Shown piece after piece: positions 16,996-48,355 of a stretch of 64,000 nucleotides of DNA (its first letter is position 1; every line of letters begins with the position of its first letter). The stretch is from Gonocerus acuteangulatus. Lineage: Eukaryota; Arthropoda; Insecta; Hemiptera; Coreidae. A program made the position numbers and the translations under genes. The stretch covers positions 82,774,923 through 82,838,922 of the forward strand of contig OX328124.1 in assembly GCA_946811695.1 (NCBI GenBank). Direction: 5' to 3'. The notes below the pieces were generated by a model. The model saw nothing but the letters and a program-made list of their open reading frames with translations, was not told the DNA's origin and ran no database searches.

Positions 16996-17232
16996 ATGAT
17001 GATAAGGCAAATAAAAAAACAAATAATTTCAACTGTGCGGTCAAAAGCTACCGCTTCGAGCGTTCTTCAGGAAAAAATATCTCAATACCTGGAAAATCCT
17101 GAAAATGTAACATTCGCCTGGAGAAATTTTTTTGAGTGGAATCCTCAAGTAATTGACGACCTGTCTGTCAAAAAACAATTAGAGGAAAAACTTGAGGAAA
17201 AATCAAAAGAATATTCTGGATACAGAGAGGAC
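16996..17232 (+). CDS. OGDH-like exon 1
   Basis: 79 codons, ending in phase 0 at AGGAC/GTAAGT. Two adjacent ATGs (16996 and 16999) begin a presequence-like stretch. An upstream in-frame ATG at 16948 would add residues including an acidic one and is less likely. The E1 N-terminal motif lies at about residues 25-45, followed by a Lys/Glu-rich helix. In OGDH this region contacts the E2/E3 partners. Confidence 0.8.
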
Positions 17233-17568: not shown

Positions 17569-17615
<47 letters not shown>

Positions 17616-20600
17616 TATTACGTGTATATGTTACCTCTCTGGAGGTAATCGATTTTTGAGGGTGAGGTAATTGCATAATAATAAATAAAAAAATCTGTTT
17701 AATTAATGACAATATAATTAATAAAAGGACATGCTTCTTGCATACTACGGATAATAATAAATAAAATATAAACAAATCTTTTACATGCACAAACGCACCG
17801 ATATAAATAATTAGTTTTTTTTTTGCTCATTCTTTTATCAATAAAATGAAAAATAAATAGAAATTAAAAAGGTGCTACTCTGCATGCTTTTATAAAAAAA
17901 TATAATAAATATGAGCATGTTTCATGCATCCCTAATTGCACTAATATACTTATGCTTAACAACTAACATATGTTCCTAACTAAATAATATATAGTATGGT
18001 CTGGCATCAGTGAATCCCACTAAAAACTTTCGACACTATTTCACAACAGCACATGGTGTCCTATCGTCCCTTAGCCGGCATTACCTCTCATGCTTTTCAT
18101 TACCAGCAAATTTTATATTTTCGCGGGTTCCCGCTGAGATATGCATAGAGGCAAGTGAGGCGTAGTGTGACCTTGACGGCGTTGTTGGATCTCACCTCGC
18201 TGTTACAGTGCTCCCCCCAACAACGGCGTCAAGGAACTTAACATTTGGCCTCCTAACTCGTCCGTATCGACTGATGGTAGATGATGGATCCTGTTTCTGG
18301 ATGCGTTCTGAGGTTTGCGTTGGCATTTCCTTCTCTGTGATTGGGGTCTTCTTAGAGATGTCTGTGTCTTCCTCAGGTGCTCCTAAAAGGTAGGCAGGTT
18401 TCACTCGGTCTAACGACACCGTGAGTTCGCGATTTGGAAGTTTTATAGTTGCCAGCTTCTCAGTTCGGCTTATAACAAGATAGGGTCCAGAATACGGAGG
18501 AACAAGGGACGTCCTTATCTTGTCTTCACGCAAGAACACATGGCTGCAAGTACTCAAGGCTTGTGGGACGAAGATGCTTTTATTCTTCTTCCTGAATTCG
18601 GTTGGACTCAGTTGGTTTAATGCCACTTTTAAGTCATCGAGGAAGTTGTGGAGATTAGTGCCAACTTTAGAAGGAACGAAGAAGTCTCCTGGTAGGCGGA
18701 TGGTCTGGCCATAGACTGCCTCCGCAGTACTATAGTCTGTATCCTCTCGAATAGTACCCCTTAAACCTAACAATACCGTAGGAAGAATCCGTGTCCATTT
18801 CTTGATATTTAAATGCGACATAAGAGCTGATTTCAGGGTCCTATGCCATCGTTCCACGATTCCATTGGCCTGAGGGTGGTAAGGAGTGGTCCGGATTTTC
18901 TGTGTTCCCAACAGATTTGCCAGCCTCATGAACAAATCGCTCTCAAATTGTCGTCCTTGGTCAGTCGTGATTTTCATTGGAACACCAAATCCGCAGATCC
19001 AGCCCTCGTAGAATGCGATTGCAATCTCCTCGGCTGTGATATTCTCGATTGGGATTGCCTCCGTCCACCTGGTAAATCGGTCAATCATCGTAAGACAATA
19101 TTTCATGTTATCTGCCGGAGGAAGTGGGCCTATGATGTCGATGTGGACGTGTTCAAATCTACCTGCTTCCGGAAAACATCCTGTTGGTGTCACTGTGTGC
19201 CTTGTAACTTTGGCCTTTTGACATGCAACGCAACAACGCGACCAATCTCCAACGTCCTTGTTCAAGCTGGGCCAGAAATACTTCTGCGCGATCATTTTCC
19301 TTGATGCGGTCGTTCCTGGATGACTTAGCCCATGGAGTAGGTCGAACGTAGATTTACGAATCGATTTGGGCAGGTATATGCGGACTCGATCGGAAGAGGT
19401 TTCGCACAGAACAGGTTTGGTAGCCCCTGGTATATTAAGAAGTTTGAGAGTGATGTTCGGACGATTTCTTAATGCTTCTACCTCAGGATCATTACGCTGT
19501 AGGTCTACTAAATGGTCAAGATCTTCAGTGATATTTATCTCCTATACTCTAGAAAGAGCATCGGCAACAGAGTTGTCTGGCCCCTCTACGTGTCTAATAT
19601 CCGTAGTGAATTCACTGACGAAATTCAGCCACCGTAATCTAATCGGAGATGCTGAAGTCGCCTTCTGATGCATCGAGTAGACGATTGGTTTGTGGTCGGT
19701 AAGGATATGAAACTGCCTTCCTTCTATAATTGGGCGGAAGTACCGTACTGCTGAGTAAATGGCAAGCAGTTCTCGATCGTAAGTCGAGTAGGACTGTTGT
19801 GCTTCATTTAGGGCCTTCGAAAAAAATCCGAGGGGTAGCCATTCTCCCGCTTCTCTCTGCTGGAGAACTGCACCCATACATTGATTAGATGCGTCACAAG
19901 CAAGAGAAAGTTCTGCAGATGGCTTAGGATGGGCTAATTGGGCAGCATTTTTGAGAAGTGATTTGCATTTCTCAAATGCTTTGTCGCTGTCTGCGGTCCA
20001 GGCAACCGGTGTGCGATCATTTTTCTTCGCTCCATGAAGATATTTGTTTAATGATTTCATGGCTTCGGCTGCTTGTGGAATACAAGGTCTGTAAAAATTG
20101 ATGATACCCAAAAAACGTCGGAGTGCTCGAATATCCGGTGGTTTCGGGTATTCCATGATTGATGTGACCTTCTCCTCTTTGGGTAGGACTCCTTTCGGGC
20201 TTACCTAATATCCTAGGAACTTGAGGCTGCTGACGCCGAACTCGCATTTTTCCGGGTTTAAGGTCAATCCATTGTCCTCGAGTCGTTTGAAGACTTCCTT
20301 CAAGTGATTCTCGTGTTCTGCCTGGCTGTTTGAGGCAATCAACATGTCATCGATTAGGACGAACACATATGGCAAGTCTCGAAATAGGTTGTCCATGAAG
20401 CGTTGAAATGTTTGCGCTGCGTTCCGAAGCCCAAAGCACATCTTCATGAACTCGAACAGCCCAAAAGGTGTTGTAACGGCCGTTTTGGGTATATCCTGCT
20501 GACGTATGGGAATGTGATAATAGGCACGGACTAGATCTAACCTTGTGAATATCTGGGTGCCGTAAAGGTTGTTCCTGAAATCCATCAAGTGTGGAACTCC

Positions 20601-23600
20601 ATATCTGTCGGGTACAGTTTGAGAGTTCAACTGTCTGTAATCACCGCATGGTCGTACTCCTCCATCAGGCTTGTCGACAACGTGGAGCGCACTTGACCAT
20701 TGGCTCTTAGAGGGTCTACATATTCCAAGTTCCACCATACGGTGAAATTCTTCCTTCACCTGCTGATATTGATCCACTTGAATTCTCGTCTGAGTCCTAA
20801 GTCGAGTTTGAGTTCTTGTTCGCCGAAAGTTCTAATTTTTGTCCCGTTCGCTGCGAACAATGTGTACGCTAGAGGGTCTTTCATTGGAAGAAACTCCTGG
20901 GATATCCACGGGTTGGACAACTTCCTGAATCTTATCAGCAATCTCGGCTAATTTCTCTAAATCAGGTTGCCCGGTGCTTATCAGGATAGCTTGCATGTTT
21001 TGTGGTAGAGATCGAAGCCAAAGAGTTTTCAAAACACCAGTAGGAACTGATTCACCAGCTAGCCGTTTCATCTGTCGTAAAAATCTGGTAGGCTTGTCGT
21101 CTCCTAGTTGTTTACCTTCTAACAACTCCTGGATTTTCCTCGTCTCCGAATCAGAGTAGACACTGACAAGTCTGTCTTTGAGGTCCTCATAAGGTCTCTC
21201 ACCTGGCCTCTTGACAATATCAGCAGCCTGGAGTAAAATTTCGCTGTCTATCCTCGGAACGACGGTGTGGAATCTGGTGACACTATTAGTGATACCGGCT
21301 CTAGTAAATACCCACTCGACCTGACAAAACCAAAGTTCTGGGTCTTTCTTGATAAATGGTGGGATTTTGTCGGATGCCGTAAATGCAGAGCAAAAGTCAA
21401 CTTTATCAGTTTTAGTAAGAACAATCTCATCCTGATCTTCCATCTTTATAATTTTAACCAAAAAATAAGAAACCAAAAAATTTTATCTTATATATGCACG
21501 TAATTATTTTAAAAATTATATTTAGTGACTAGGATATCTAAAGAAAATATATTAATAGAATATAAACATTAGTGCATACAAATTAGGGTATGAAAAATAT
21601 GACGTCACAACCATGCAATTTGCCAACCTCTCAAGATCACGTCGAGGTCACCACTGTTACCTCTCTGGAGGTAATCGATTTTTGAGGGTGAGGTAATTGC
21701 ATAATAATAAATAAAAAAATCTGTTTAATTAATGACAATATAATTAATAAAAGGGCATGCTTCTTGCATACTACGGATAATAATAATTTTAAATAAAATA
21801 TAAACAAATCTTTTACATGCACAAACGCACCGATATAAATAATTAGTTTTTTTTGCTCATTCTTTTATCAATAAAATGAAAAATAAATAGAAATTAAAAA
21901 GGTGCTACTCTGCATGCTTTTATAAAAAAATATAATAAATATGAGCATGTTTCATGCATCCCTAATTGCACTAATATACTTATGCTTAACAACTAACATA
22001 TGTTCCTTAGGCTATTACTTGCGCAAGTAAATAATATATAGTATGGTCTGGCATCAGTGAATCCCACTAAAAACTTTCGACACTATTTCACACTAGCACA
22101 TGGTGTCCTCTCGTCCCTTAGCCGGCATTACCTCTCATGCTTTTCATTACCCGCAAATTTTATATTTTCGCGGGTTCCCGCTGAGATATGCATAGAGGCA
22201 AGTGAGGCGTAGTGTGACATTGACGGCGTTGTTGGATCTCACCTCGCTGTTACATATATATACATTACCAAAAAAAATTTAACAAAAAAAAATTAACAAA
22301 AAAAAAATTAACAAAAAAAAAAGATAAACTAACAAAATAAAAATAGAACATGAACAATAGGTAAACAGAACATGATAGGTAAACAGAACATGAGGTGAAC
22401 AGAACATGAATTATAAAATAACAAATTATTGCAAATGAAAGAAGTCTTGAAAACATCTTGGCTTCAGTCGTGTTGCAATCCTCTCTCCTAGCTGAAAGTA
22501 GCCGGCTCCTTCTATTGTTGAGAGTTTTCCGTAGTGCCTTTGGGTGAGTTTTTCAATGTGCTCTGCGGAGTGGACAACCCCGAGCTCAGTCTTTCATAAG
22601 AAACACACAAATCCACAGAGTGCATTTAAAATCATTCGAAGAATTTTATTTTGAAATGTCTGAAGTCTTCGTTCGTTTGTGTTACTGGTACTGTACCAAA
22701 CTGGGCATGCGTAAGTCAGTAATGGAAGTAATAGAGTTTTGTATAATAGAACTGCGCATTTGTGTCTGAGTGGTGTTTTCTTCTTCGCCAAGGTAGCGCA
22801 CACTTTGGTCCCTAGGAGTCCAAGGAACTCGAACCTGTCCAATCCGCAAGCAAGGAGAAGTCCTGTCATCGAAGTGCCTCAGTGCGGATATCTTTGCTTC
22901 AGTCTTCGATGGATTGAGACGGAGTTTCCACCTTTCGAACCACGAGGTAATGCTGTCCATTGATGACTGAAGGTTTGCGATGGTTTCTGGAACATCATCT
23001 CCTTGACTCATGACTAGCGTATCATCAGCAAACAGAGCGACCGTGGCAGTTTGAGGCTCGGGGATGTCGTGACAACACAAGCTAAATAGTAAAGGGCTCA
23101 GTACTGCTCCTTGTGGCACACCAGCAGAGACGCTTATTTTTCGACTGAAGCTGTTTTTCACTCGTACTTGTAATGTTCTTTCGTCAAGGAACGAAGAAAT
23201 AATGTTCGCCAGATAGCATGGTGACCAAGTTTTTTTGAGTTTATACAGAAGGCCCTTGTGCCACACTGTGTCGAATGCTGACTTGAGATCTAAGAAAGAT
23301 GGCAGTTGCTTGTTATCAATTATGTTTGGGTTTGAGGGTTGGGGAATTATTCGATGCCTATAATGACCTTTAATAGAATTCTATTAATTTCTGCGAGTTG
23401 GATTGACTAGGGTTTTGATATCTTCTTGAGCGAGCGTAGCGAGCGGAAACGCATAGCACGTAAGCCCACAAGTCGTCCTAGACATTCTTCTAATTCCCCT
23501 AGACATCGTCAGACGCGATGTTCGTGGATATAAATTCCCAATCGCACCGCCGGTAGTTACTCCTACAAGCTACAAATCCTGTATTTCATACTTTGCCTAA

Positions 23601-24412
23601 AGCACAGTAGGCAATCTATAGAATGCCTAAGGAAAGTATGAAATAAGCTTTATTTCATACATTGCCGGCTGGATTTAGGCATTCTATAGAATGCCTGATT
23701 ATATACTTTGCCGGTAACATATATATAGATAGAGAGAGAGAGATTTCGTGTAAGCGCGAAGTTTAGCCGAATACTGCAAGATTGTTTTGACTACGAAAAT
23801 TCTCTCTCCCCATGAGCTATTGAAGTAGATTACGAGAAAAGACTGCCAGTTCGAGGAACTGTTTACGTCTTATGAAGTGATGATGTTTTAAATCCATTCT
23901 CATTATTGGAGCCAGAATCTTAATCAGTTGTTTTTGTTAAACAGTTTTACTTTTTTTTGGGGGGGGGGAGGGGATTAAGATTGATTGTAAATACTTCTAA
24001 ACTCTAACATCCTCATTCAAATCCTAAGGTGATTTACTACATTTCAGCGATAGGCTCATTGAAAAGCATCTGTACTCTATCATGGATGTTAGCACATAAA
24101 AAATAACGATCATAATAACGATAACAATTTTCAGATCTTATCAGAACTTTATGTATACGACCAAATCCAAATGTACAGAGTAGTTACTAATTACCAATCG
24201 CGCGGACATTTATCTGCAAGTATAGACCCATTGAACGTGAACCGCCCCAAGTATGTTGCAGGCAGCGATCATTGTCCTGCGGGTGATATTGATTCAATCA
24301 GGGAAATACCACTAAACAAAGAAAGGAAGATAATACTTCCGGACGATTCTTTTTATGGTAAGTCAAAGAAATACGTAATGTACACACACACATTCATTTA
24401 TATTTATATTTA

Positions 24413-31486: not shown

Positions 31487-34400
31487 TGTTAAAACGTGGT
31501 TGCATTATACTAAGTAAAAATGACTTATTTCATAAGTTTATGGCTCAATCATATTTTAGGAGGATCTAGTACAGTAATGTCCCTACGAGACGTGCTGATA
31601 AGGTTAAACGAGTCATATTGCAACAGCATTGGGATCGAGTACTTGAACAATACCTCACTTGAAATCCGCCAATGGATCAAGAGGAAATTCGAAGACCCAG
31701 CATTGATTAAGTCGATGTCTTCAGCACCTTTGAAGCAAGTCATACTCCGTCGGCTGATAAGAGCTCATTGTTTTGAAGAGTTCGTTAACTCCAAGTGGCC
31801 ATCTGAGAAGCAGCATGGAGCTATTGGCTGTGAGATCCTGATTCCTGCCTTACAAACACTTATTGATTATGGTTCCTCTCAAGGAGCCCAGTCTTTTGTT
31901 TTAGGTATGATTAATATTTCATTATGAAATAGAGCTTTAATGCAGCTAATTGTCCTTTTACCGCTTGTTCATTTCTACATGTTTTAAATCCCGCTTTGGA
32001 CATTACTTGCCATGTGTCTTAGCACCCAGCATCTCCATTTTTCACGCAATGCATTCAGCATCGAAAAATTCAGACTCAACAGACAAGTATACGAACCTGG
32101 ATCTGTAAAAATCTTCGAGCTACAATAACAGCTTCGTTTCTTAATCGAACATTAGATGAGATTAGACGTTTATAGTTATGAGTAGTCAGCCGTGTACAAT
32201 CGACAGACCAAAAAAAAAAAAAAACTGTTACTCATATAAAATAAGAGGAAACATTAATTTAGGCAAACGAAGCATTTATTTTTGTCTAGCAGGTCAAAAA
32301 ATATACTATTTAAATGTTTTATCTCTATTATATTATCAAGGACTTTCTCCTGTTTTTAGCGCGCTTCTTCCCTCCTTCCATGGGGAGGAAAACCGCTTAT
32401 GAGGTTTGACCTCATGAAGCAATCCGGAAGTGCCGACTAGAAAATTGGGTACAAATATCCTTCGTCTAATTTGAAAGATCAAGTCCGTTAAAGCTGCAGA
32501 ATCCGTTTACCGGAACACAGTTTATGGGGCTAAATTTGCACGAAAAAATTGTAGCGCTTACGTTTTCGCGTTGATATGATTGCAGGCACTCTTTTTATAG
32601 GTTTTCTCAGGTAAAAAAAAAAAACGAATGAAACCATTTTTAAAGCTATATCTGTAATCGTTTACGAGAAACTTTTACACAACTAGTTTTCCTAATTGAA
32701 TATACGATTTGGGTATTCTGAAACGATTGATTAAGTTGAAAATTGTTCCAGACGTTTGACTTGTTTTTCACATGCTGCTTAATCCTCCTTTTAATTAACT
32801 GTAACGACTCTCCAATGTATACCTTATTATAATATGAGTAATTAATTTTGTAAACATTATATCTAGAATCCTTTTATCTTTTATTCTAAAAGACATTGAT
32901 TTTATTTTATTTTGTCTATAGGAATGACTACAACAAGAGCAAGGCTGAACGTACTAGCGAATGTTTTCAGGAAGCCATTGCAGCAAATATTTGTACCATT
33001 TCACAGGGATCTCCACATTGATGATAAATACGTTCTTGGTAACAACGTGAAGAAAGTAACTTCCAACCAAGCACTGCCGACGGAGTTTGCAGTCCTGGCA
33101 AGCACTTCGAATTTTGTAGAAGCAGTTGACCCACTTGTATCAGGCAAAACCCGGGCGGAGCAGATGTACACGGCCGATGAGGATGGAAAACGGGTAAAGC
33201 CCCGCTTTCATTACTACAAATCTGCCGTTCGACATGACGCACGACATGTGCCGGGCACAAATCGCAGAATGGATCTATTAGCAACAAGTCGCGGCACAGG
33301 TGCCTGGGACACAAATGTGCCAGACGACCGCGGCAAAACATCTGTCCTCGACTTGTGCCAAGGGTAATGGAAACAGTCCGCAACTTGTGCCGGGAACATG
33401 CGCATGCGAAAAAGACCGTTTACACATACAACCCTGTCTAATGTCCACAGAACCTAACCTCAAAAGTGTCTTCCCTATAGGAAAAAATGAAATACACTAA
33501 GATAACTTAAAAATGTGTAATGGTTAAAAGATGTGTTTAAAATATTTGGCCTTTATATTTAATAAATAGTAAAGGTAGATAAAGCCTAAAACCTTTAAGT
33601 ATATTAGAAGAACTTGAATACCTGATAATTATTACTAACCCTGTATAGATTAAACATAATGAAAGATTAAATAGTATAGAAGTTAACGAATGCTATAATC
33701 AACAAAATAACTAACATTTTGCAAAATGAGAATCAATTGATTGATAGGTCATTATATTCATATTTAAAAAATACGAACAATCATTCTCCAATGGTAGGCA
33801 AAGGTCCAATAAGGGACAAGAAAGATGAATTACTGTCAATTTCCTTAAGACATGTTCTGTGTGATAAATCGTAGATCTATTATTAACAGATGAATAACAA
33901 TAAGCAATCTTAAATTCTTTCAATACGGAGTTGAATAGTCATGTCCTTGACTTTGTGAAGACCTTCATTACATCTTTCAGAAAAAGACAAGTACATTCAA
34001 TCCAGTCGCATAAAAAGAAAATAATAAAAAAGAAATAAAACATGGCCAATTCTTCGGTTCTTTTTGGATATAGTATGATTTATCAGCATCATTGTATGAT
34101 TTAGTGTAGAGTTATAACATACTATTGCATAAATCCCATGATGTTTCTATATAGAAATGATATAACTGGAATTATATTCATATTTAATATTATTTATTTA
34201 AATTTTAACGTCCATTATCATTACCTAAGAATTTTGGGACGGGTTATCTATAGGTTACCACCCTTTTCTAGCCAGGATATGGCTGGTGCTTTTTCTTTTT
34301 TTTCTAAAGAAAAGCCGCCACCACATAGTGGGAATCGAACCCACGACCTTTGGCATGGAGTGTTAAGAGCTCACGCCTTAACACTTTTTTAATATTAACA

Positions 34401-37400
34401 TTTTGCAAAAAATAGAGTGTACATTGTAAAATTCAATAATCTTTCTATATAAAATTGAAAACCCCAGGCACATTTTTAAAAATCAATTTTTTAAAATCAC
34501 AAATATTTTATGTAGTAATATTCTATTATATTTAATTAGGCAATATCAATAATACCTGTAATATAAGGTAACTATAGTTGAACAATCAGTGTCCTAGTAA
34601 ATCAGAGTCAGGCTTATAACAGCAGGCTTGCAAATTCTGAGGCTCCTCTAGATTACTACATTTCTCAGAGTCAAATTTGCACCTCAATTTACAATGCTTA
34701 CTCCTAAGTTGTAAAATAAAGTTTAATTTCGGTCTGCATGCTCCATTTTCGATGGACATAGAAATTAAAGATATAGCCATTTTAATCACACAAAATTCAT
34801 TCTAAATCCGATTTCAAGGTCCTAGAAAGACATTGTTTAATAAATATCAACTTCCAATATTCGTAACTTCAGAGATGAATTAGAGGTTTAAAATAACATT
34901 TTATCAAAACCCATTTAAAATAAAAGTTTCCTATATAAATAGATATTCATTCATGCAAATCAGAGATTTTCTTGAATTACAGGTTTGGCCAATTATTATT
35001 CATGGAGATGAAGTAATAAATGGCCAAGGAATTGTGCTGGAAACTTTTCGAATGTCAGGACAACAAGGATACACTACAAAAGGAACTATCCATATTGTTC
35101 TAACTGATCAAGTAAGTTTTTCGGATGTTTCAAGTTGAAAGTTTAATTTTCCTTGAACAGTAATGGAATAATATCCCTTACCCATAAAGACACAAGGTCT
35201 GACCTGTTCCGGCTAAAATATAATGGCCTACACATAAAGAGCACACCCCCATTGTAAGTTCCTGTTCCTAAATTCAAACGTAAACACACATGCAAAAGTC
35301 CAGATGCAGGCTGGACATGTTAAAGTACCACTAACAAGGGACGCACTGATGTTTATGGCTTTAGCAGTCAACATACCATAAAAATAAATGTAAAAGTATC
35401 ATTCCACAAACAGAAATCCTCTGTTTGAATGATAAACATGTTATTCATTTCAGATTTGTGGTAATAATAGACAGAAACCCTAGGTGGTATTCATGTACCG
35501 TCATCTGGGATGAGTTCGGACAGGTAGTACCAGTTTGGACAATAATTCATGGAGCAGGAAATCTCCAGTGCAGTGATTTCCTTCACCCTGCATTATTTTT
35601 CGAACTTGTACCGCCGCTTTAAACTCACCTCAGACGACGGTACTGTTTAACAACTAACATTCGGGCACTAGAATCCTTGCAGAACCTGTACCCCTTTCTC
35701 AATTTTAGAAATTTGAATTTTATTAATTACTTGTACTTAAATACATATATATTTCATAGACTAATCCAAATAATTTGGATTTATTTTCATCTGAAAATTT
35801 AATTACAGGTGAATTTACCATCTAAAAAGTCAGATTACCATGGATCAAATGATATTTATTGCACAAATGTTGCTCATTCAGTAATGGCACCAGTATTCCA
35901 TGTTAACTCTCAAAATCCTGAAGCTGTAGTTTATTGTATGAAAGTAGCAGCAGAATACAGGGCAAAATTCAAATCGTAAGAATTTTTTATAATTATGGTT
36001 TCAGAAATTTTACGTTGTCATTAAATATTTACATATTTTTTTTTTTTTTTTTTAGTGATGTAATAGTAGATCTAATATGTTACCAAAGATATCTTCCAAA
36101 TGAAAAACAAATGCCAAAAGACATAAAAGACAAAATTGACAAAGAACCATCAATTTTGGAGAAGTACTCCCAGAAGCTAGTCAGCGAAGGCGTAAGTTTT
36201 ATTGTTATTACCATTGTGAAATGGGTCAAGAAACAATGAGTCTTGACAGTACTTGCAGATGGTGTCATTAAATTGATATCACAAGCGGGTTTTGGGCCTA
36301 AAGAGAGGAAGGAAACACACTAAAAGAATATAATTTCTTAAAGAAATTAAATGAATTACAGAAATATTGTAATTTCTCATTACATTATAAGATGGCAACC
36401 CTAATTATTGCTTTGGGCTTTTTAATCCTTTAATAGCAGACCCAATTAGCGGCGCCCAACTCATGTGGCCAAGGTAATGCTCCATCTACTCATGCCTTTT
36501 GGCCCTCCTTACAAGATGACAACTAACTAGTTTGTCTTGTTGTCAACATTGAGCTAACTGCATTAGTCGCCCAGTCATACAATCATGTTGTCAACATGGC
36601 CTTTGTTCAAATATCATAAAAACCACTACTTCATCGCCATATCTTCCAATCTCCTTGTTTGTGTAAGGGAAATCTGTGCTATTACCCTATATATACATGA
36701 CAAAATTGGTTTAAGTGAGAGCAAATTAGACAGCTCGGTGGAACTTAAGTTTAAAAATTTTTAAATATACAGAAATGATAGGAACCGAAATGGTGGAGGA
36801 GTTGCAATAATGATAAATAAGAATATTAAACATTACTCATTAAACATACCAAAAACCAAAAATATCGAAGCCATGGCCTTACAGATGATTATTAATGGTG
36901 AAAAAAACTACAGTTATATCTGGATATTTACCCCCAAATAAGATACTCTACGAATCAGACTTAAAAATCCTCTTTAGTTTAGGTTCTAAAATACTATTAA
37001 TGTGAGACTTAAATTGTAAACATGTAGCTTGGAACTGCTACTCTCAAAACAAAAACGGCAAAATTCTTTTAGACTTTATTATTGACAACAATATCAAAAT
37101 TCTAGCCCCCCAAGAGCCAACACATATTCCAAAAGACCCTAGGAAAAAACCCAGTGTAATAGACTTTGTCTTGACAAAAAATGTAACAAGCATCTCACAA
37201 GTAATATCTGATCCTAGCTTAAGTTCGGATCATAATGCAATAATATATTATTTAAGTAAAAAATATAGTGTAAATTGCTATAAAAGTTCTCTGGACCATA
37301 AACATACTGATTGGTGCATATATAAAAAATATATTACAGATTCCATGTACCCACCTAGCGCTCCAAGTAACCCGCATGAATTAGAACAAAACGTTTTAAA

Positions 37401-40400: not shown

Positions 40401-43400
40401 TGGGCATGAACCATGTAGAGCATACCAAGTAAATGATATAAAAAGCTGCAGTGAGTTTTAACTCTGTCTTGATTCCAACCTGACTTAGTGATTCCACAAA
40501 GAGAAGTCCTTAATAATACCAAAATTATTGGTTTTTTTCTCTATGTATTTACTGGACCGTTAAGAATTTTCTAAGATATCTTTTAATTTACTAAATTTTT
40601 ATACTCTAGTTTTAAGTAAATTTTTTAATGAACGATTTGATTATAGCCAAAATATATTTTTAAAAATACTGAAACATAATAATAAGTTTGTACTGCTTTC
40701 AGCTAAGTTCATGGTATGAAATTGACCACACTATAGAGAAATACAACAATCTTTTGGAGTACAGCTATTCTAAAGCACAAAAATCTCAGTTTAAAGTAAA
40801 TGAATGGCTTGATTCGCCCTGGAAGAGATTTTTTGAGGTATATTTCCCTTCTTTGGTATTAATAGTTAAATTAATTTGATTCGATTTTGAAATAAATTCT
40901 CATTAAACCAAATATATCACTTAATCATGGAATGAAAGAAAAACCAACAATGAAAGTAATAAAAATTTTTTGCTTTCCAAAATATTTCATATCTGAATTA
41001 TGTACTATGTATTATGAAATATTTGGAGGCTGAAATATATGAGCGTTAAGGCTTGAGCGCTCTGTACCAAAGGGCCATTGGTTGGATTCCCACTAGGGGT
41101 GTTGACTTTTCTTTAGAAAAAAGAAAAGGCATCAGCCCTATCCTGGCTAGAAAAGGGTGGTAACCTATAGATAACCCGTCCTAAAATTCATAGTTAATAA
41201 TAAATGAGTGTTAAAATTTAATAATTATTATGAAATATACACTATGTATTTCCCTAAGCACCATTTAACAACCTAATACTGTTTCATCTAATAAGAAAAC
41301 ATATTTCTTTTTTGCCAAGTTTTGATTGTTGGCATTTTCCTATTTTTTCAGAAAAAGCTTCAGTTAGTAGAGCCAAATACATCTGTTATTCCATCTGTAT
41401 ACAAAGCAACTCTCGAAAATTTGTTGAACTATCAAACTGACATCAATATTCATCCATCTATTTTAGAGAAAGTAGGCAAAAACTTAAAACTTGCTAAGGA
41501 AAACAAGATAAATTGGGCGATGGCAGAAAATTTGGCCATAGCCTTCATGTTACAGGTACGTTATTTTTTGATAGCATTGATTGAATGGAATATAAATGGA
41601 AAATTTATTTAAATAAATATGTTTTATATTATAAGATGGATACATTTTTCTCGTCCTTTTGACATATTTTCAGGATTACATAAAAAAATAATAAAACATT
41701 ACATCCTTCACCTAGGAGAACCATCTGCAGGCAGGGCCATGTTTAGACTGAGAAGATCAATCTGAATTTTGGTTACACTTGGAGTAGAGAAAATAGTATA
41801 AACAAAAATATTTTATAACATACATGGTTGTGTGTATATATATTGTTAAATATCTGAAAAACAGTTGAGATAATATGGTAATTGGCGTTCCAAATCACAG
41901 CAGGATGCATTATGTAGAAACACGCTAAAAAGATGAAATATCTTTGAGTCAGATTTCTAGCACTTTCCAGAGTAATGTAGCTATTGAGGTTGCACTCATG
42001 AAGGAATTATTGTAAAATTTCTTCTAATGCCGGCATTTAATTGGCCGGATGGTGGTGGTACATCATTTTACTGGTAAAACTCTTAGAAGGCATACATGCT
42101 TCCTTTTAGAGGCAGCAACTTGTATTTCTACTAAGAAAATAAATGTTTCTACTAAGGCATCTGTGGCTGGAATGCCTGATTTTCCATCTAGTTTTTGATA
42201 TTGTAATAATATATGCATAAATAGGTGATATATATAGTTAGTAATTAAATATTTTTATTTTGGTTAAACTGTCTACATATTTTTATTCCTATCATATGCA
42301 CTTGTAAATAACATACCAGGAAGGATTTACATATTCTGAATTTATTTTATAATTCGGTACCTAAATCACATAAATACACAATAATAAAATTGGTACATAT
42401 TATTATATTCTCTAATAATAAGGTTTTTCAAATAAATAAGTGACAGCTTCTAACTGAATTCTCTTATCAGGCATTTTCTCTAATCTGACTGTGCCCCGGT
42501 CCCGGCGACAACGGATTAGGGAGAGTCTACTGTAATAACACCATAATATATATAATTCGACTATTTTTTTAGGAAGGTATAAACGTCCGGCTGACAGGAG
42601 ACAGGAGTGAGGAAGGTGCATCCATAGAAAGGAACCATTTATGGTATGCTATTGATAGTGATCAGAACCGAATCCCGCTCAGAGCAATGTATAAAGCTCA
42701 AGGGTACTACACAGTATGCAACAGCTTGTCCTGCGAGGTATATTTTTATCATTGAATTTAATAATGTTAATGTCAACTAATCTCGTTTAGTATATTAGGC
42801 CGCTCCATAATCAGTGCTTAATATACAAATATTTTAGTAACTTATACCAAATAAAGTGCATATCCCTTTTAGCAACTGGTAAAAATACAAATGTCTCGAG
42901 TAAAACATAGACTTTACCACAATATTTTAAATCTATACATTTCAAAATTGTTGAAATAAAAAAGAACAAAACAATCATGTCTGTAGTGCATAATACGTTT
43001 ATATTGGACCAAATGAAATTGTTTTGTTTTTTTTGTGTTGATATATAAAGATGTTTTTTATATCTCAAAGAATATATTTTTTATTTATATGCATTACAGA
43101 ATCTTAAAGGCATTTAAAATTTCCTAGTTTGCCAACTTGGGTTTTGAAATCGGGTTTTCACAAACAAGCCCAAAGTCACTTGTCATTTGGGAAAGTGGAG
43201 AAGAGGATCGAACAAGTTCAGCACAATACATGATAGATGTCTTCTTGGCTGCCGGGGAAGGACGGTGGTTCAGACAAACAGGAATAGTATGTCTGATTCC
43301 ACATGGAATGGAAGGTACATTATGATTCCTTACATGGGCGTATATAAGGGGGGGCTGAGGGGGCTGCAGCCCCCTCAGCCCTCAAAATTTTGATTTGATC

Positions 43401-45114: not shown

Positions 45115-45159
<45 letters not shown>

Positions 45160-47748
45160 TGGATGTTTGTTAACCAGCAAAATTGCTAATAATAATAACT
45201 CAGAGTGTATTGTGCTCAACTAAGGAAGAAGTGGTATAACTATAAATAACCAAAAACGGTCCATCAGAAATGGGAGTTTATGGAAAAACCAAATTATTAA
45301 TTTGACAATACCGTCCGTTATTTTTACTTCCTTAGAAAGCATAAGCCTGTTTATGTCAAATGAAAACTCAGTAGATATGATGTCCAACTAATGAAAACAC
45401 ATATTGATAACATAAGCAAAATTAGTCCATTATGAGTCCAAATAATAGGACTCCAGAACCATTTTTTTATTATTTTTTTTTTTTTCAAATAATTTCAACT
45501 GCTGTCTATAACAAATATAAAGAAGCAAAACTATTTATACTTATATTCATATACCAAATTCATATTGGTTAGTTTAATCACATTCCTCAGTTATATTTGG
45601 CATGAACTAACCGCCTTGCTGAGATATGTGTTTAGTTATGCAGCTTCTGCATGACCGATTTTTTTGATTTATATGTAATAAACCCCTGAAAATAATTTTG
45701 GCTAAATAAATATTTGGTACAAGTTTCATTAGTACCTATGTTTGTAAAACAAAAAGTTGGAAGGGTTGACAAAGGTAATTTCAACCTTTTAGCTTCAAGC
45801 AAAAGTTTTGTTCTTGTTTTTTTTTTTTTTTTTTCCTTTTTTTGAAAGATGAAAGCACAATGGAACACAGCTACAATAACTACTACTGTATAGAGAACTG
45901 AAAATTGAGAGAGTGGAGGGGATGAATCACTGGCACATGTCATGTTATTACATGGCTGGACTACTAGAATGGCAAGGAAGAACTGAGATGAGTGAGAGAG
46001 AGAGACTGGTGGGGGTAAGTCACTGGTCACTGGTGAGTCCGTAAACATTTTGTTGAATAGCTGTTTTCTCTTTTATAACTGAATAGTATTTATACCAGGG
46101 GAACAAATTAGCTATCGTATAAGTGGATGTTGCATTTAACTGAATATCGCAAAAGTGAATAATTCATTACACAGGATTAAATGGATTTTCGTAGGGGAAC
46201 AAAAAATTCTTTCTATAACTGAATGTTTCGTATAAGTGAGATTCCATTGTACATTCCTTGAAAACTTGAGATGTAATATAATCACTTTCACTTTAAGAAA
46301 AGAAAAGTAGATAAATGCAATATCAAATGCCCCATCTATAGTTACAGTAACTATTAACTACCTAGAGATAGGCGTAGACTTTAAATAAATAGTTAAAGCT
46401 ATAAATAAGTAATTTATTTTCCCTATGTATATAGTTCATATAAACCCACTTAATAGGCAGAGGCGAAGGAGCGTCAACAGGCCGACCCGAGCGCTTTCTT
46501 CAAATGTGCAATGATGATTACACGGCACCAATCACCAACATGGTTATGCAGCTTACCCAATGTAATTGGATTATAGCAAATGTGACCACTCCAGCCAATT
46601 ATTTTCATGTACTTCGCAGACAGATGAAAGTGAATTTTAGGAAACCCCTGATTCTTTTTACTCTTAAAAAACTTTACAAGAACCCAGACATTTATTCATC
46701 AAGAGAAGAATTTTTGTATAAAAAGAAGTACGTATTTCTAAGTTTCTGATATAGCTATCTTCCAGAAGGATAGAAAATGTTATATTTCTTCACCTCCATT
46801 CTGGCATTCTCTTACTCAACTTTCTATAATGTACCACAATTGAACGATACCATTCTCCCTTTTCTGTCCCTTGCTAGTGGTAGTTTTTTTTTGTTTTGTT
46901 TTTTCGTTTTTAACGGCGCATCAACTATTTAGCGCCAGTAGTACTTAGTATACTAAATGTTGCTATTTTTAGGCCCACGAATCTAATATTAGACTTGATC
47001 TCTATATAACTAGGTCATATTATCCCTACCATGTCAAACTATCGAATATGCAAATTGGAGCAAACTAGGAAATTAATATATTCTATCCATTGACAAAGTA
47101 ATGTATTGAAAAATGGTCTTATTCGATACTCTATTTAACGAATTAAAGGGGTTGCAACAATTTGCAGCCAGCCGTATTGCCCACAATCCAAGAGCAAAGT
47201 GTTGAATCTGAAAAACGAGATTTCTCATATTCGATAGTTTGACATGGTAGGGAAAATATTTACCCCGTTGTACTAGCTGGTCTCACACGCCATAATGTAT
47301 AAGCTAATCACTTTCAAATGTGATTCTAGCACAGACTGTGTACAAGGGTTATGTTTTAGTTCCTGAATTTGAGCAGAAGGCTCTAAACGAATTTATTTTT
47401 TATGTATTTATTCTTTATTTTGCTAATTTACATAGTACAGTAAAAGAGTCTTTCAATCTATCTAATAACACTATACATACTGATGTGAGGGATAGCAAAG
47501 TAGTACACCGCTTGATTCATGTACTGGAGGTCCTGAGTTAGAGATTCAGTCCTTAATATTCTATCAGGGGTCAGGCTTTGTGTATCATACCATTTCCAGG
47601 CCTGCCTAGCCTTTAATGGGTACCTGCAAGGGGGAAGATCAGGCAGCCAAGGCATAGTGATGTCTAAACTATCTCAGTAGTCTGCTATAAGGCCAAGAAT
47701 TAGACACCTGAAACGTAGCAGCCCCTTTGGACATTCTCACCTCTTATG

Positions 47749-47794
<46 letters not shown>

Positions 47795-48355
47795 CTTTTT
47801 TTTTTATCGAACTGGACTAAACTGTACTAATAATTTCATCATTCGTTAGAGGTAAAATTGATTATACTGTTATTTATTAATAAAATTCATGTTTTTGGAA
47901 GGTTTCAAGTATATTTAGAAGATAAATCCTTCGGCCCGGAAACTACTCAGCCAAAAGAGAAAGTTTTGAAAGTATTACTATGCACTGGAAGGGTCTATTA
48001 CGACTTGCTTAAGGCAAGAAAAGCAGCCGGTGCTGAAGATAAAATAGCTATTTGCAGAATTGAGCAAATCAGTCCTTTCCCATATGAAATGCTATCTAAA
48101 GACTTAGTTAACTATGATAATGCTACGTTTCATTGGGTACAGGAGGAACACAGAAATCAAGGATGGTGGTCATATGTAAAGCCCCGATTTTCTAATGTAA
48201 TGCAAATGATTAAAAAAAGAGAATCTGATTTCGCCAGAGAAGTTAATTATATTGGAAGGCAAACCTCTCCTACCACAGCAACTTCTGACGCTCTTGAACA
48301 TAAAGCACAAAAAAGCCTTTTTCTAAATGAAGCAGTCACACTTAAACCTTCATAA
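16996..48355 (+). CDS. 2-oxoglutarate dehydrogenase E1-like protein, catalytically altered paralogue (13 exons)
   Basis: The 13 exons listed below give 2925 coding bases (974 residues), close to the roughly 1020 of animal OGDH. All 12 introns are GT-AG with matching phases. The N-terminus ([20 protein letters not shown]) is basic with no acidic residue, like a mitochondrial presequence. Then come the E1 N-terminal motif ([15 protein letters not shown]), [11 protein letters not shown], the alpha/beta core ([29 protein letters not shown]), [17 protein letters not shown] and the C-terminal [10 protein letters not shown] block. Family active-site motifs are altered: HRGR to TRAR, KYHLG to KYVLG, GFTTDP to [17 protein letters not shown] to [16 protein letters not shown] to IERNH and QFGDFHN to GEEDRTS. 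In OGDH these hold thiamine diphosphate and substrate. I infer an inactive but structurally kept E1, possibly a partner or decoy subunit. A decaying pseudogene is the alternative, but no stop or frameshift is seen. Confidence 0.88.
17571..17619. repeat. (TA)n microsatellite, Gypsy target site
   Basis: A TA tract adjoining the left end of the Gypsy element at 17629. The element's 4-bp target duplication is TATA. Confidence 0.9.
17629..18207 (-). repeat. 3' LTR of the deleted Gypsy element
   Basis: 579 bp, beginning TGTTACCTCTCTGG and ending CGCTGTTACA on the + strand. It has a 19-base deletion relative to the other LTR. Confidence 0.92.
18192..20777 (-). pseudogene. Gypsy pol: RT, RNase H and integrase, two in-frame stops
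   Basis: A single - strand frame with TAG at 20207-20205 and at 19544-19542. RT lies at about 20777-20205, but the catalytic motif reads VLIDD where the neighbouring element has VYLDD. RNase H lies at about 20156-19542 ([26 protein letters not shown]). The integrase has the HHCC region and the D, D and E positions ([28 protein letters not shown]). The 5' end is joined to the protease remnant by a deletion that shifts frame. It is not expected to be active. Confidence 0.9.
20756..20941 (-). pseudogene. protease remnant of the deleted Gypsy element
   Basis: The - strand reads [17 protein letters not shown] and LGLRREFKW, matching about residues 70-100 of the neighbouring element's pol. The aspartate motif DTGA upstream is missing. 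Both flanks are deletion joints, so gag, this piece and pol lie in three different frames. Confidence 0.8.
20832..21476 (-). pseudogene. gag of the deleted Gypsy element, 3' truncated
   Basis: About 214 residues similar along their length to the Gag at 29507-28794: [15 protein letters not shown], a central [15 protein letters not shown] block and [22 protein letters not shown]. The C-terminal zinc knuckle is lost because a deletion joins Gag to the protease remnant. The start could be the ATG at about 21443 (MEDQDE) rather than the outermost one. Confidence 0.85.
21655..22254 (-). repeat. 5' LTR of the deleted Gypsy element
   Basis: 600 bp, nearly identical to 17629-18207. Transcription of the element would run leftward from here. 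Confidence 0.92.
22260..23325 (-). mobile_element. 5'-truncated Jockey-type LINE fragment
   Basis: The - strand carries RT motifs [33 protein letters not shown] and [10 protein letters not shown] (23266-22682). In a shifted frame (22869-22594) follows the thumb block [13 protein letters not shown] deletion or frameshift separates them near 22800. The 3' end carries repeated GTTAA plus T-run units (22265-22325). Endonuclease and ORF1 are absent. Confidence 0.85.
23590..23715. repeat. palindrome-rich repeat
   Basis: Two related palindromes lie here. The one at 23677-23696 (AGGCATTCTATAGAATGCCT) is a perfect 20-bp palindrome, and the one near 23609-23628 has one mismatch. TATTTCATACTTTGCC and its inverse flank them. 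It may be the end region of a small transposon. Confidence 0.6.
24135..24357 (+). CDS. OGDH-like exon 2
   Basis: Acceptor TTTTCAG, donor ATG/GTAAGT, ending in phase 1. It encodes a [20 protein letters not shown] block, matching the family's AYQxRGHHxAxLDPL, then a diverged linker to FYG. The conserved RGH is kept. Confidence 0.88.
24418..24469. repeat. (TA)n microsatellite
   Basis: TA tract about 60 bases after the exon 2 donor and directly left of the TIR element at 24473. Confidence 0.9.
24473..25069. mobile_element. TIR element of about 600 bp with a nested palindrome
   Basis: Terminal inverted repeats of about 60 bp begin GGTACTTACGTATTAGCG (24473) and end with the inverse CGCTAATACGTAAGTACC (25069). 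Both arms contain GCAGGTTAAAGAG and a GGTCTC/GATC block. No transposase is present. A second palindromic element (24605-24717) sits inside. Confidence 0.75.
24605..24717. mobile_element. palindromic MITE-like element
   Basis: Arms starting CTAGAGTTTTGATATAA and ending in the inverse of CTAGAGTTTAGATATAA, around a centre with AACGCGTAGCA and TGCTATGCGTTTCC. The GAGCGAGCGTAGCGAGCGG block occurs here on the - strand and at about 23430-23450 on the + strand, so the sequence is dispersed. Confidence 0.6.
25162..25552 (-). repeat. 3' LTR
   Basis: 391 bp. On the - strand it starts TGTAGCACCACG and is preceded by the polypurine tract GGGGGGAAGTGA. Confidence 0.92.
25553..26200 (-). pseudogene. integrase C-terminus, in a shifted frame
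   Basis: 215 codons of open frame starting inside the integrase catalytic region. [34 protein letters not shown] and a Thr/Pro-rich tail align with the C-terminal half of the pol at 18192. The break from the upstream pol frame lies near 26160-26170. It belongs to the same ancestral pol and is not a separate gene. Confidence 0.88.
26122..28734 (-). pseudogene. Gypsy pol: protease, RT, RNase H and integrase N-terminal part
   Basis: 870 codons. The protease active site DTGA lies at about residues 48-51 and the RT motif YLDD at 343-346. RNase H follows ([26 protein letters not shown]). The integrase has its HHCC zinc region, then the catalytic D, D and E in [19 protein letters not shown] and NGVVERWHR. 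The frame is lost just after the catalytic Glu and resumes in the frame of 26200-25553. Gag lies upstream in another frame, consistent with expression of pol by ribosomal frameshifting. Confidence 0.92.
28719..28772 (-). other. CHCC zinc knuckle of Gag
   Basis: On the - strand, in the Gag frame but after a TAG, the peptide [18 protein letters not shown] carries a C-x2-H-...-C-x3-C pattern. CsRn1-clade Gags are known for CHCC instead of CCHC knuckles. It overlaps the start of the pol frame. Confidence 0.75.
28794..29507 (-). CDS. Gypsy gag, ending in a stop before the zinc knuckle
   Basis: 237 codons from ATG 29507. The core holds [20 protein letters not shown], the [16 protein letters not shown] block and [18 protein letters not shown], typical of this clade's short Gag. 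An Arg/Ser-rich tail (RSRGRERSR) ends at TAG 28796-28794. The same frame continues beyond the stop into the CHCC knuckle, so the stop is either an inactivating mutation or a readthrough point. Confidence 0.88.
   Translation of the reverse strand: MISEDDMKEEMQTEETQVSATGPGANIRIPPFWRADPELWFCQADAVFATSKILSSRIKFQMVVANLEFEVLRQVSDLVKNPPADPYEALKCRLISTYAESENLRIRRLLEDKRLAEGERPSQFLNELKRLAGASVSTELLRTMWLKALPERMQATLAVTTEQSVDKLAEIADRIAEIYEPSVSQVTSQSTQPHTHSSTSVSQLEEMMQKLTLEISELKNQIARDRGSRSRGRERSR
29503..29521 (-). promoter_or_regulatory. tRNA-Trp primer binding site
   Basis: GATCACGTCGGGGTCACCA on the + strand equals the 3' end of tRNA-Trp with CCA. On the - strand it follows the 5' LTR after one spacer base, where reverse transcription would start. 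Confidence 0.85.
29522..29911 (-). repeat. 5' LTR
   Basis: 390 bp, almost identical to 25162-25552, which indicates a fairly recent insertion. Confidence 0.92.
30400..31010 (-). mobile_element. decayed family A copy
   Basis: The - strand contains blocks recognisable from 15600-16250: the tract before AAATATTTTATTTTTAGACG, the CGGTTTGGGAATCGTGG stretch and GAGTCGGAGAAATAAGTG. It is much diverged, and its ends are not defined. Confidence 0.4.
31170..31300 (-). repeat. dispersed repeat block shared with 44109-44580
   Basis: The - strand reads TTGTTCCTTATACAAATCTACACCGTTTGACCGATTTTGACCAAACTTGGCACACAGG in pieces, matching the about 120-bp units inside the element at 43334-44945. Confidence 0.65.
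31358..31484. repeat. two (TA)n tracts
   Basis: TA tracts at 31358-31406 and 31423-31484 end about 75 bases before the exon 3 acceptor. Confidence 0.9.
31560..31904 (+). CDS. OGDH-like exon 3
   Basis: Acceptor ATTTTAG, donor TTTTAG/GTATGA, entering in phase 1 and leaving in phase 1. It encodes [22 protein letters not shown], a block with [12 protein letters not shown], the [27 protein letters not shown] region in shorter form, [17 protein letters not shown] and SFVLG. These match the OGDH core, including the conserved GCEVLIPAL segment. Confidence 0.92.
31905..32921 (+). other. OGDH-like intron 3 with a partial family A copy
   Basis: Family A sequence starts TTAGCGCGCTTC at 32356 and continues to about 32745 without the TA tract. 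The rest is AT-rich. Confidence 0.6.
32922..33193 (+). CDS. OGDH-like exon 4, altered ThDP and substrate motifs
   Basis: Acceptor GTCTATAG, donor CGG/GTAAAG, ending in phase 0. It reads [19 protein letters not shown] where the family has [14 protein letters not shown], so the active-site His (His260 in E. coli E1o) is replaced and one residue is inserted. DDKYVLG stands for DVKYHLG, losing the second active-site His (His298). [18 protein letters not shown] is well kept. An open frame continues into the intron to 33367 but does not resemble the family. Confidence 0.88.
33194..34982 (+). other. OGDH-like intron 4 with a SINE
   Basis: AT-rich apart from a GC-richer first 200 bases. It holds the SINE at 34193-34387. 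Confidence 0.6.
34193..34387 (-). mobile_element. tRNA-derived SINE, copy 2
   Basis: Same family as 6367-6575, with B-box GGGTTCGATTCCC on the - strand. It is flanked by the 10-bp duplication TTTAATATTA (34183-34192 and 34388-34397). Confidence 0.8.
34983..35111 (+). CDS. OGDH-like exon 5
   Basis: 43 codons in phase 0, acceptor ATTACAG, donor CAA/GTAAGT. It encodes [19 protein letters not shown] and ends IVLTDQ. The Asp of HGD, a metal ligand in E1, is kept. The family's NNQ becomes TDQ, so the second metal ligand is Asp instead of Asn. Confidence 0.9.
35112..35808 (+). other. OGDH-like intron 5
   Basis: About 700 AT-rich bases. I see nothing recognisable in it. Confidence 0.6.
35809..35975 (+). 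CDS. OGDH-like exon 6
   Basis: Acceptor TTACAG, donor AATC/GTAAGA, ending in phase 2. [12 protein letters not shown] replaces the family's GFTTDPRMARSS. Then [20 protein letters not shown] closely matches [20 protein letters not shown]. Confidence 0.9.
36056..36191 (+). CDS. OGDH-like exon 7
   Basis: Acceptor TTTTTAG after a long T run, donor GGC/GTAAGT, ending in phase 0. [20 protein letters not shown] stands where OGDH has [20 protein letters not shown], so the RNGHNE active-site loop is replaced. [11 protein letters not shown] is kept. Confidence 0.9.
37171..37839 (+). pseudogene. LINE ORF2: endonuclease end and linker
   Basis: 222 codons from inside the endonuclease ([13 protein letters not shown] near the start) to the stop created by the AT-rich inverted duplication at 37790-37910. 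The same frame upstream carries the rest of the endonuclease, broken by a few mutations. Confidence 0.85.
37790..37950. repeat. local inverted plus direct duplication inside the LINE ORF
   Basis: The phrase AATATACTGGCTCAACACTATA occurs forward near 37764, inverted near 37887-37908, and forward again near 37924. The inverted and last copies form a hairpin of about 23 bp. Between them are iterated ATTAATATAGATTTT units. It splits the LINE frame. Confidence 0.85.
37894..39468 (+). CDS. LINE ORF2: reverse transcriptase and C-terminus
   Basis: 524 codons, open to the stop at 39468. Motifs in order: [69 protein letters not shown] and the catalytic YADD at 38767-38778. Then come KYLGLHLD and the thumb block [14 protein letters not shown]. 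The RT domain itself looks undamaged. The real ORF began upstream and is broken at 37790-37910. Confidence 0.92.
   Translation: MLSQYISDKANILAQHYIKIHFQNIGLGIRNHTNRINKFSDKYINDNCNTAITPINELTNIYEVRKIIKSLKKKSPGKDNIPVVFIKQITHKAIVELVNIINKVLQLKYFPNSWKDSKIIPIAKPGKDNKLVQNYRPISLLNILSKITEKIKLKRLDKFILRNNILRNDQFGFRSKHSTTAQLCRLVDHITGEFNNKKHTGLITIDAEKAFDTVWHQGLIFKLNQYRVPTHLILLIHSFITGRSFTVQINNTESVAKFPAAGLPQGSVLSPILYNIYINDLPNTKNVHTYLYADDLAFSSSSYRIDTIRNRLTEALTKISKLYLKRKIKINLDKTEFIIFTKRRPRDCSPIRMPNGTELSCRDSVKYLGLHLDRGLTFTDHVNNTCNKSIKAMFIMYPYFNRQSTLSNQNKTLIYKLCIRPILTYACPVWSYTSNYNYKKIQIIQNKCLRIITNQPIYTKINKLHSLANIISLKTFIRNLAKKFFFYRCKLNKNNLIKNLGNYNKNSLKRYVHKRLKHIFLKYL
40703..40837 (+). CDS. OGDH-like exon 8
   Basis: 45 codons, acceptor CTTTCAG, donor GAG/GTATAT, phase 0. 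It ends [14 protein letters not shown], matching the family's IKHWLDSPWPGFF. Confidence 0.9.
41023..41226 (+). mobile_element. tRNA-derived SINE, copy 3
   Basis: Sense orientation in intron 8, with a diverged B-box (GGTTGGATTCC) and the body GCATCAGCCCTATCCTGGC. Flanked by the 12-bp duplication ATTATGAAATAT (41011-41022 and 41227-41238). Confidence 0.85.
41352..41555 (+). CDS. OGDH-like exon 9
   Basis: 68 codons, acceptor TTTTTCAG, donor CAG/GTACGT, phase 0. It encodes a diverged middle segment ending [18 protein letters not shown], which aligns with the family's TVDWALAEYMAFGSLL. The Glu of AMAEN aligns with the Glu of ALAEY. Confidence 0.88.
41556..42572 (+). other. OGDH-like intron 9
   Basis: About 1 kb, AT-rich. 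I see no recognisable element. Confidence 0.5.
42573..42737 (+). CDS. OGDH-like exon 10, altered His motif
   Basis: 55 codons, acceptor TTTTTAG, donor GAG/GTATAT, phase 0. [11 protein letters not shown] matches [23 protein letters not shown] replaces the family's ERGTFSHRHHVL, removing the histidines. YYTVCNSLS is kept. Confidence 0.9.
43128..43314 (+). CDS. OGDH-like exon 11
   Basis: Acceptor TTCCTAG, donor GAAG/GTACAT, ending in phase 1. [20 protein letters not shown] is followed by [10 protein letters not shown] where the family has AQFGDFHNTAQ, losing the GDF-N signature. [17 protein letters not shown] is close to the family. The donor lies 20 bp from the TIR element at 43334. Confidence 0.9.
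43334..44945. mobile_element. 1.6-kb TIR element with 10-bp target duplication
   Basis: Ends are ATGGGCGTATATA and its inverse TATATACGCCCAT. Both flanks carry GATTCCTTAC (43324-43333 and 44946-44955). Near the left end is GGGGGCTGCAGCCCCCT, a strong GC palindrome. Four about 120-bp tandem units start at 44109, 44226, 44349 and 44473. No transposase is seen. TSDs of 8-10 bp are usual for Mutator-like elements, so that class is a guess. Confidence 0.78.
44109..44580. repeat. four tandem units of about 120 bp
   Basis: Each unit carries AGCTGTCTGTCTG, TTGTTCCTTATACAAATTC, CACCGTTTGACCGATTTTGA and CTTGGCACACAGGTAGG with differences. The same phrase occurs singly at 31170-31300. Confidence 0.85.
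44956..46456 (+). other. rest of OGDH-like intron 11
   Basis: It holds a poly-A tract of about 40 bases at 45118-45157 and T-rich runs near 45475 and 45820. No gene is supported; the open frame at 45632-46048 shows no family likeness. Confidence 0.5.
46457..46727 (+). CDS. OGDH-like exon 12
   Basis: The acceptor is the AG of TTAATAG, chosen over the nearby GGCAG because only it keeps the frame. The donor is AAGAA/GTACGT, ending in phase 2. [13 protein letters not shown] and [20 protein letters not shown] match the family's [13 protein letters not shown] and NFFHVLRRQILLPFRKPLII. Confidence 0.9.
46728..47901 (+). other. OGDH-like intron 12
   Basis: It contains a poly-T tract of about 45 bases at 47752-47795 and AT-rich sequence. 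No gene is seen. Confidence 0.5.
47902..48355 (+). CDS. OGDH-like exon 13 and stop
   Basis: Acceptor GGAAG/GTTTC. It encodes [33 protein letters not shown] and [19 protein letters not shown], all closely matching the C-terminal domain of OGDH, then a diverged tail to TAA 48353-48355. Confidence 0.92.

Follow-up and report, generated by a model that had tools for sequence, protein, structure and literature searches.

A putative dead E1 paralogue of 2-oxoglutarate dehydrogenase in the bug Gonocerus acuteangulatus and its relatives in Heteroptera

Pseudoenzymes are a known kind of protein, and dead paralogues of metabolic enzymes have already been described. PDHX/E3BP is an inactive E2-like subunit in the pyruvate dehydrogenase complex. 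In Drosophila, recombinant S-Lap1 and S-Lap6 were found to be inactive, and S-Laps are part of the paracrystalline material required for fertility (PMC6388916). A dead paralogue of the E1 of the 2-oxoglutarate dehydrogenase (OGDH) complex, including a conserved family of such proteins in Heteroptera, was not found in the literature searched on this point. Here, a stretch of 64,000 nucleotides from Gonocerus acuteangulatus (Hemiptera, Coreidae; contig OX328124.1, positions 82,774,923 to 82,838,922), referred to below as the window, was examined for an OGDH-like gene lying on its forward strand at 16996-48355. The product of this gene is tentatively read as a mitochondrial pseudoenzyme whose likely place of action is the OGDH complex, as a dead subunit, with a probability of roughly 0.45. 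Loss of activity, mitochondrial import, purifying selection and the mechanism are predictions from sequence, and "dead" is used below in that predicted sense.

The gene consists of 13 exons and encodes 974 amino acids in 2925 nt, as determined by spliced alignment against an OGDH guide. All 12 introns have GT-AG borders, no internal stop is present, the ATG lies at 16996 and the stop codon ends at 48355. A human OGDH sequence served as the initial guide. Four bug guides recovered nearly all of the junctions that they cover, so the model is independent of the choice of guide: the Halyomorpha halys protein P0001 gave 11/11 donors and 11/11 acceptors identical to the model, the Nezara viridula protein P0121 5/5 and 5/5, the Rhynocoris fuscipes protein P0002 11/12 and 11/12, and the Rhodnius OGDH P0271 10/11 donors and 11/11 acceptors. 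In control alignments, the H. halys guide scored 2960 on the window versus 19 on the reversed sequence, and the Rhodnius guide 1418 versus 111 on the reverse complement. The open 13-exon frame that resembles OGDH from end to end, first proposed in an earlier note made from the letters alone, was thus confirmed with independent bug guides. GC contents of the coding sequence at codon positions 1, 2 and 3 are 0.469, 0.351 and 0.357, and that of the introns is 0.37.

Pfam domains E1_dh (84.3 bits), Transket_pyr (70.2 bits) and OxoGdeHyase_C (146.3 bits) follow one another in that order over the whole length of the protein, all above the curated cut-offs. Among solved structures the nearest are human OGDH E1 chains (675 bits), with DHTKD1 at 370 bits. 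Identity to insect OGDHs is about 38%. The fold comparison was made with the H. halys relative from re-ranked Foldseek matches and covers the listed families only. Fold-level homology to an enzyme is thus combined with the absence of key catalytic residues, as expected of a pseudoenzyme.

These residues were located by transferring known active sites. The four catalytic histidines of OdhA (His543, His583, His747 and His1017) were mapped by motif (PMC10415282), and further cofactor and substrate residues were taken from DHTKD1 (PMC7340257). Exon 1 (16996..17232) carries the start codon, a basic presequence-like N terminus and a putative remnant of the E2/E3-binding segment (LENPENVTFAWRNFF), and its junction with exon 2 was recovered with Nezara P0121 too. 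Exons 2 (24135..24357) and 3 (31560..31904) were placed by spliced alignment. In exon 4 (32922..33193), HRGR has become TRAR, KYHLG has become KYVLG and NPSHLEA has become STSNFVEA, so that two catalytic histidines and the cofactor-wedge stretch are altered. Exon 5 (34983..35111) has HGDEVI for HGDAAF, retaining the Mg/thiamine diphosphate (ThDP) aspartate, and TDQ for NNQ. GFTTDP is replaced by NLPSKK in exon 6 (35809..35975), and RRNGHNE by QRYLPNE in exon 7 (36056..36191), where the third catalytic histidine is gone. Exon 8 (40703..40837) has the donor that differed with the Rhodnius guide, and exon 9 (41352..41555) was again placed by spliced alignment. Exon 10 (42573..42737) reads GASIERNHL for GTFSHRHHV and retains the catalytic glutamate at its end, exon 11 (43128..43314) reads SGEEDRTS for AQFGDFHN, and exon 12 (46457..46727) reads GRGEGAST for GMGPEHSS, with loss of the fourth catalytic histidine. 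The stop codon falls in exon 13 (47902..48355), which also encodes most of the C-terminal domain (PF16870). A hexamer resembling a polyadenylation signal, AATAAA, lies about 50 nt 3' of the stop on the same strand (48407..48412), as a motif match only.

Overall, 11 of the 14 named active-site residues are altered in the window protein; Asp411, Glu722 and Tyr349 (human numbering) are retained, and one inserted residue leaves the alignment at Leu377, the wedge residue, ambiguous. The four catalytic histidines correspond to T, V, P and A in the window protein, to T, I, P and T in H. halys and to P, K, D and C in R. fuscipes. The N. viridula fragment covers two of the four positions, with T and V, and the other two fall outside it. 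The Mg/ThDP aspartate (HGD) is present in all four proteins. The Mg ligand Asn444 is aspartate in the window protein alone and asparagine in the other three, whereas the catalytic glutamate (SCEF) is found in the window protein, H. halys and R. fuscipes and lies outside the N. viridula fragment. The changes that the earlier note had read in HRGR, KYHLG, GFTTDP, RNGHNE, SHRHH and QFGDFHN are exactly as it gave them. Its view that nearly every active-site motif was changed holds for 11 of the 14 named residues, all four histidines included, but not for the Mg/ThDP aspartate and the catalytic glutamate.

The distribution of the losses was examined against 151 other E1o (OGDH E1) rows, namely 150 database proteins without the three dead ones and the human guide. 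In this set 166 columns are at least 98% invariant, and for 160 of them a residue can be read in each of the three dead proteins (window, H. halys, R. fuscipes); 93 are retained in all three, 43 are lost in all three and 24 are mixed. The first twelve ordinary E1o rows retain 162-166 of the 166 columns, scores that are partly built in, since the same rows helped to define the columns. Loss in all three dead proteins affects 9/13 named active-site residues versus 34/147 elsewhere (Fisher p=0.001). For positions no more than two residues away from a named one the proportions are 20/39 versus 23/121 (p=0.0002), and with a limit of six residues the enrichment is weaker (24/62 versus 19/98, p=0.010). 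The C-terminal stretch (human 820-979) contains 25 invariant residues, of which 24 are retained. It had been suggested from the letters that mainly catalytic residues were lost and the scaffold was spared; the concentration of loss at named residues bears this out, but the scaffold is eroded as well, and the window protein retains 111 of the 160 near-invariant columns.

Relatives of the window protein were sought in two protein searches in which only candidates sharing short words were scored, and those named here are among the matches listed. P0001 of the stink bug H. halys (844 aa, publicly named 2-oxoglutarate dehydrogenase-like) is 72-73% identical to the window protein and P0002 of the assassin bug R. 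fuscipes (948 aa) 45.6%, which puts the window closer to stink bugs than to assassin bugs. N. viridula P0121 (475 aa, a fragment) is a dead relative obtained from the profile search, and the remaining listed matches have at most 42% identity. A tree of 30 rows groups the dead proteins (window, H. halys, R. fuscipes) in a single clade supported at 100/100, and with Nezara included the clade receives 100/99 and 100/100 in two later trees. When the clade is enlarged with two further dead genes of the same genome (C1 and C5b, described below), support is 92/96 and the branches are very long. In approximately unbiased (AU) tests, on a tree with long branches and without C1 and C5b, joining the dead clade with all 13 insect rows was not rejected (p=0.478), and joining it with the three live Heteroptera rows was weakly rejected (p=0.0385). 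The dead proteins evolve fast: the window and R. fuscipes proteins share 45.6% identity, whereas Rhodnius OGDH is 84.0% identical to that of the planthopper Lycorma.

Three queries were run against the whole genome (1.106 Gb, 135 contigs, the window being C5:82774923-82838922): the OGDH of Rhodnius, the dead protein of H. halys and the profile PF16870. All three find the same OGDH-type genes, at least five in number: the window gene, C1, C5b, C9A and C9B. This count is a lower bound, as the searches score the best candidates only, and hits were grouped into genes manually. Two of the genes are putatively live OGDHs in tandem on the minus strand. C9A (C9:60923387-60968466), the canonical copy, has three readable catalytic histidines, all intact; about residues 188-357 of the guide, including the fourth histidine, fall in a run of N (C9 60937999-60942998). 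A spurious stop-bearing exon at this run was masked for two trees and left unmasked in the intron map. C9B (C9:60980780-61010451) has 17 modelled exons, 1028 residues, no stop and four intact catalytic histidines. The second, intact Ogdh that the earlier note would have sought is therefore present, and twice, with motifs intact where readable.

The other two genes, also on the minus strand, are dead. For C1 (about C1:167552286-167598106), 821-929 residues were modelled with no stop under any of three guides, although one or two middle exons differ between the models. Its motifs read RRLAR, KFNLG, HMARGL (the aspartate is gone), SRAMVN and EGDKTS, and the catalytic glutamate is glutamine. C5b (about C5:31208352-31228651), with 762-781 residues modelled, shows no stop with the window and Rhynocoris guides and one stop with the Rhodnius guide, in a poorly aligned middle exon; its identity to every other row is 23-25%. 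The first residues of C1 and C5b were not found in the modelling. The window gene is thus a dead OGDH paralogue as first described, but not a single one, since the genome holds three. A DHTKD1 origin of the dead genes was considered and rejected, as OGDH scores higher than DHTKD1 for the window gene (675 versus 370 bits), C1 (469 versus 321) and C5b (201 versus 116). No separate DHTKD1 gene was seen genome-wide with the PF16870 or OGDH queries at that sensitivity, which reflects either loss or limited sensitivity.

The three dead genes of this genome have six introns that agree in both place and phase, with one of them lying one alignment column off in C5b and the DQ|V intron of C1 shifting with the window guide. 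None of the six is present in C9B (0/6) or in C9A (0/6, one of the six places in C9A being inside the run of N). All five genes have one intron in common, and another is shared by C1 and both C9 genes. Because these six positions are shared by the dead genes and absent from the live ones, it appears that the three dead genes derive from one old copy, and for this common origin the shared introns are better evidence than the protein tree. On sequence grounds, Heteroptera seem to have an old pseudo-OGDH family.

Genes of E2 type were also noted in this genome. E2o (DLST) seemingly occurs twice, at C18:37286162-37286845 and C31:101679121-101684184; one copy is open over 496 codons in a single exon, whereas the other, by eye, has introns. 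Of the remaining E2 genes, the single-exon one at C9:77087148 is nearest to the branched-chain E2, and a fourth lies on C6.

Whether the window gene is a functional gene at all has to be weighed first against simple error and decay. That wrong exons or assembly errors made a live OGDH look motif-poor might be suspected of a finding that began as an unaided reading. However, the same motif changes occur in independent records of other species, which refutes this explanation, and two separate OGDH genes with motifs intact where readable lie on another contig; its probability is negligible. A pseudogene or recent relic that is open by chance is very improbable. Fast evolution would fit it, as would the 43 of 160 near-invariant residues that all three proteins have lost, but the 13 exons and 12 GT-AG introns are intact with no stop or frameshift, and the relatives at 73% and 46% identity are open too. 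When the last 844 codons of the window coding sequence were mutated neutrally to 73% identity in 60 simulations, 11-30 stops arose (mean 18.9), against none observed; the simulation puts all the divergence on one copy, whereas in nature two lineages share it. Since the dead-OGDH records of H. halys and R. fuscipes are open with the same losses, the gene is no mere decaying copy. The argument of the earlier note that random decay would have broken the frame is therefore supported, and the alignment of relatives that it called for reveals losses common to open records from three other bug species, one of them a fragment. Purifying selection on the window gene is predicted from the open frame and the conservation in relatives. 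The selection for a non-catalytic role proposed at the outset likewise gains support from the intact OGDHs elsewhere, the shared losses and the simulation, the role itself being read from residues.

As to what that role may be, E1o functions as a dimer in which both subunits form the active sites, with an N-terminal segment that docks on E2o and E3. The window protein would still have the E1 fold, its C-terminal portion and a docking segment, if a diverged one, without the ability to carry out the reaction. It might pair with a live E1 or fill docking places on E2, so tuning or localising the complex, a dead-subunit mechanism for which prozyme and PDHX/E3BP may serve as precedents. By analogy with other insects, the gene might be guessed to be expressed in the male germ line. 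Several observations weigh against this proposal. The N-terminal E2/E3-docking segment PF16078 has no match in the window protein at E 0.001, although the pattern LENP..V...W..F can be discerned in that region. Cofactor binding may persist, since the Mg/ThDP aspartate and the catalytic glutamate are kept. At 15 of the 43 lost sites (35%) the same new residue occurs in all three dead proteins, which is below their overall identity of 46%, so a special new constraint on the former active site as a whole was not supported. The structure model was built from an alignment in which 45 of the 48 rows are of the ordinary OGDH type, and would resemble OGDH almost regardless. Moreover, for the two further dead copies, one very divergent, fast structural evolution is no worse an explanation than a precise regulatory fit.

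This last point leads to the chief competing explanation, in which the crystalline inclusions of bug sperm mitochondrial derivatives would use dead OGDHs as bulk structural components, much as fly sperm use S-Laps. It is possible, yet on balance doubtful. There are three fast-evolving dead copies in one genome, plus an apparently intronless E2o copy, and an intronless copy is a common sign of germ-line genes. In Drosophila, CG33791 is what we take to be an OGDH paralogue. It ranks in the top 20 sperm proteins by abundance (PMC9494239). Non-canonical Drosophila carbohydrate-enzyme paralogues are nearly all testis-restricted, and 18 of 28 are known or predicted to be inactive (PMC11836677). The sperm mitochondrial derivatives of H. 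halys contain two or three crystalline inclusions (PMC11276701), and the inactive S-Laps of the fertility-required paracrystalline material (PMC6388916) provide a model. On the other hand, the two crystallomitins of the bug Notonecta are given as 52 and 55 kDa, versus about 110 kDa expected for the window protein by our own arithmetic, and the passages naming further fly components, including Bb8, list no OGDH among them. No testis expression or sperm proteome data were found for any bug. The wider claim, that an old dead E1 family with three members in this genome forms the bug sperm crystalline inclusions as a second, independent case of the S-Lap type, is unlikely, if somewhat less so than most. 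Less probable still is an altered enzyme that would use ThDP in a modified active site, on another substrate or for another chemistry. In its favour are the aspartate and glutamate, preserved alike in the window protein and in those of H. halys and R. fuscipes, the asparagine of H. halys, N. viridula and R. fuscipes, and the identity of some new motifs, such as EDRTS, in stink bugs and the assassin bug. But the four catalytic histidines and most of the named loop residues are gone, and C1, whose modelled frame remains open, has lost the aspartate and glutamate as well.

The family, if functional, would offer a natural test of which E1 parts are needed for assembly and which for catalysis, and a candidate component of bug sperm crystals. 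In addition, the H. halys member is publicly named 2-oxoglutarate dehydrogenase-like; therefore pathway reconstructions may count a dead protein as an enzyme.

Several other readings were observed in the window. Within intron 2 of the gene, a retroelement pol reading (reverse transcriptase, RNase H, integrase) lies on the minus strand at 26122-28734, and further minus-strand readings in intron 1 (18192-21482) resemble retroelement pol by eye. Reverse transcriptase readings that look like long interspersed nuclear elements occur in introns at 37882-39468 (plus strand) and 22682-23380 (minus strand). Two adjoining minus-strand readings at 49240-50015 match the Pex2/Pex12 N-terminal model weakly, contain a RING finger, and presumably belong to a peroxin such as Pex10. 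An open reading of 117 aa at 11670-12023 on the plus strand has no Pfam match.

Compared with OGDH E1 itself, the window protein has full-length homology, about 38% identity and the same order of E1_dh, Transket_pyr and OxoGdeHyase_C, but it is without the four catalytic histidines and most of the named cofactor-site residues, and its gene has a largely different intron set. It differs from DHTKD1, the 2-oxoadipate dehydrogenase E1, in being clearly closer to OGDH (675 versus 370 bits). Like PDHX/E3BP, it would be a dead paralogue retained in a 2-oxoacid dehydrogenase system, although PDHX/E3BP is E2-like rather than E1-like and its E3-holding role is established, whereas the role of the window protein is predicted. 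The trypanosome prozyme and the dead deoxyhypusine synthase paralogue are likewise dead paralogues of metabolic enzymes (PMC5201418, PMC3663545); they have been shown to activate a live partner, while for the window protein an effect on a partner is proposed. The S-Laps of Drosophila resemble the dead OGDHs in forming a family of mitochondrial enzyme paralogues in which activity has been lost and the changes are conserved (PMC6388916). They descend from a different enzyme, and their expression and location are established, whereas those of the dead OGDHs are predicted.
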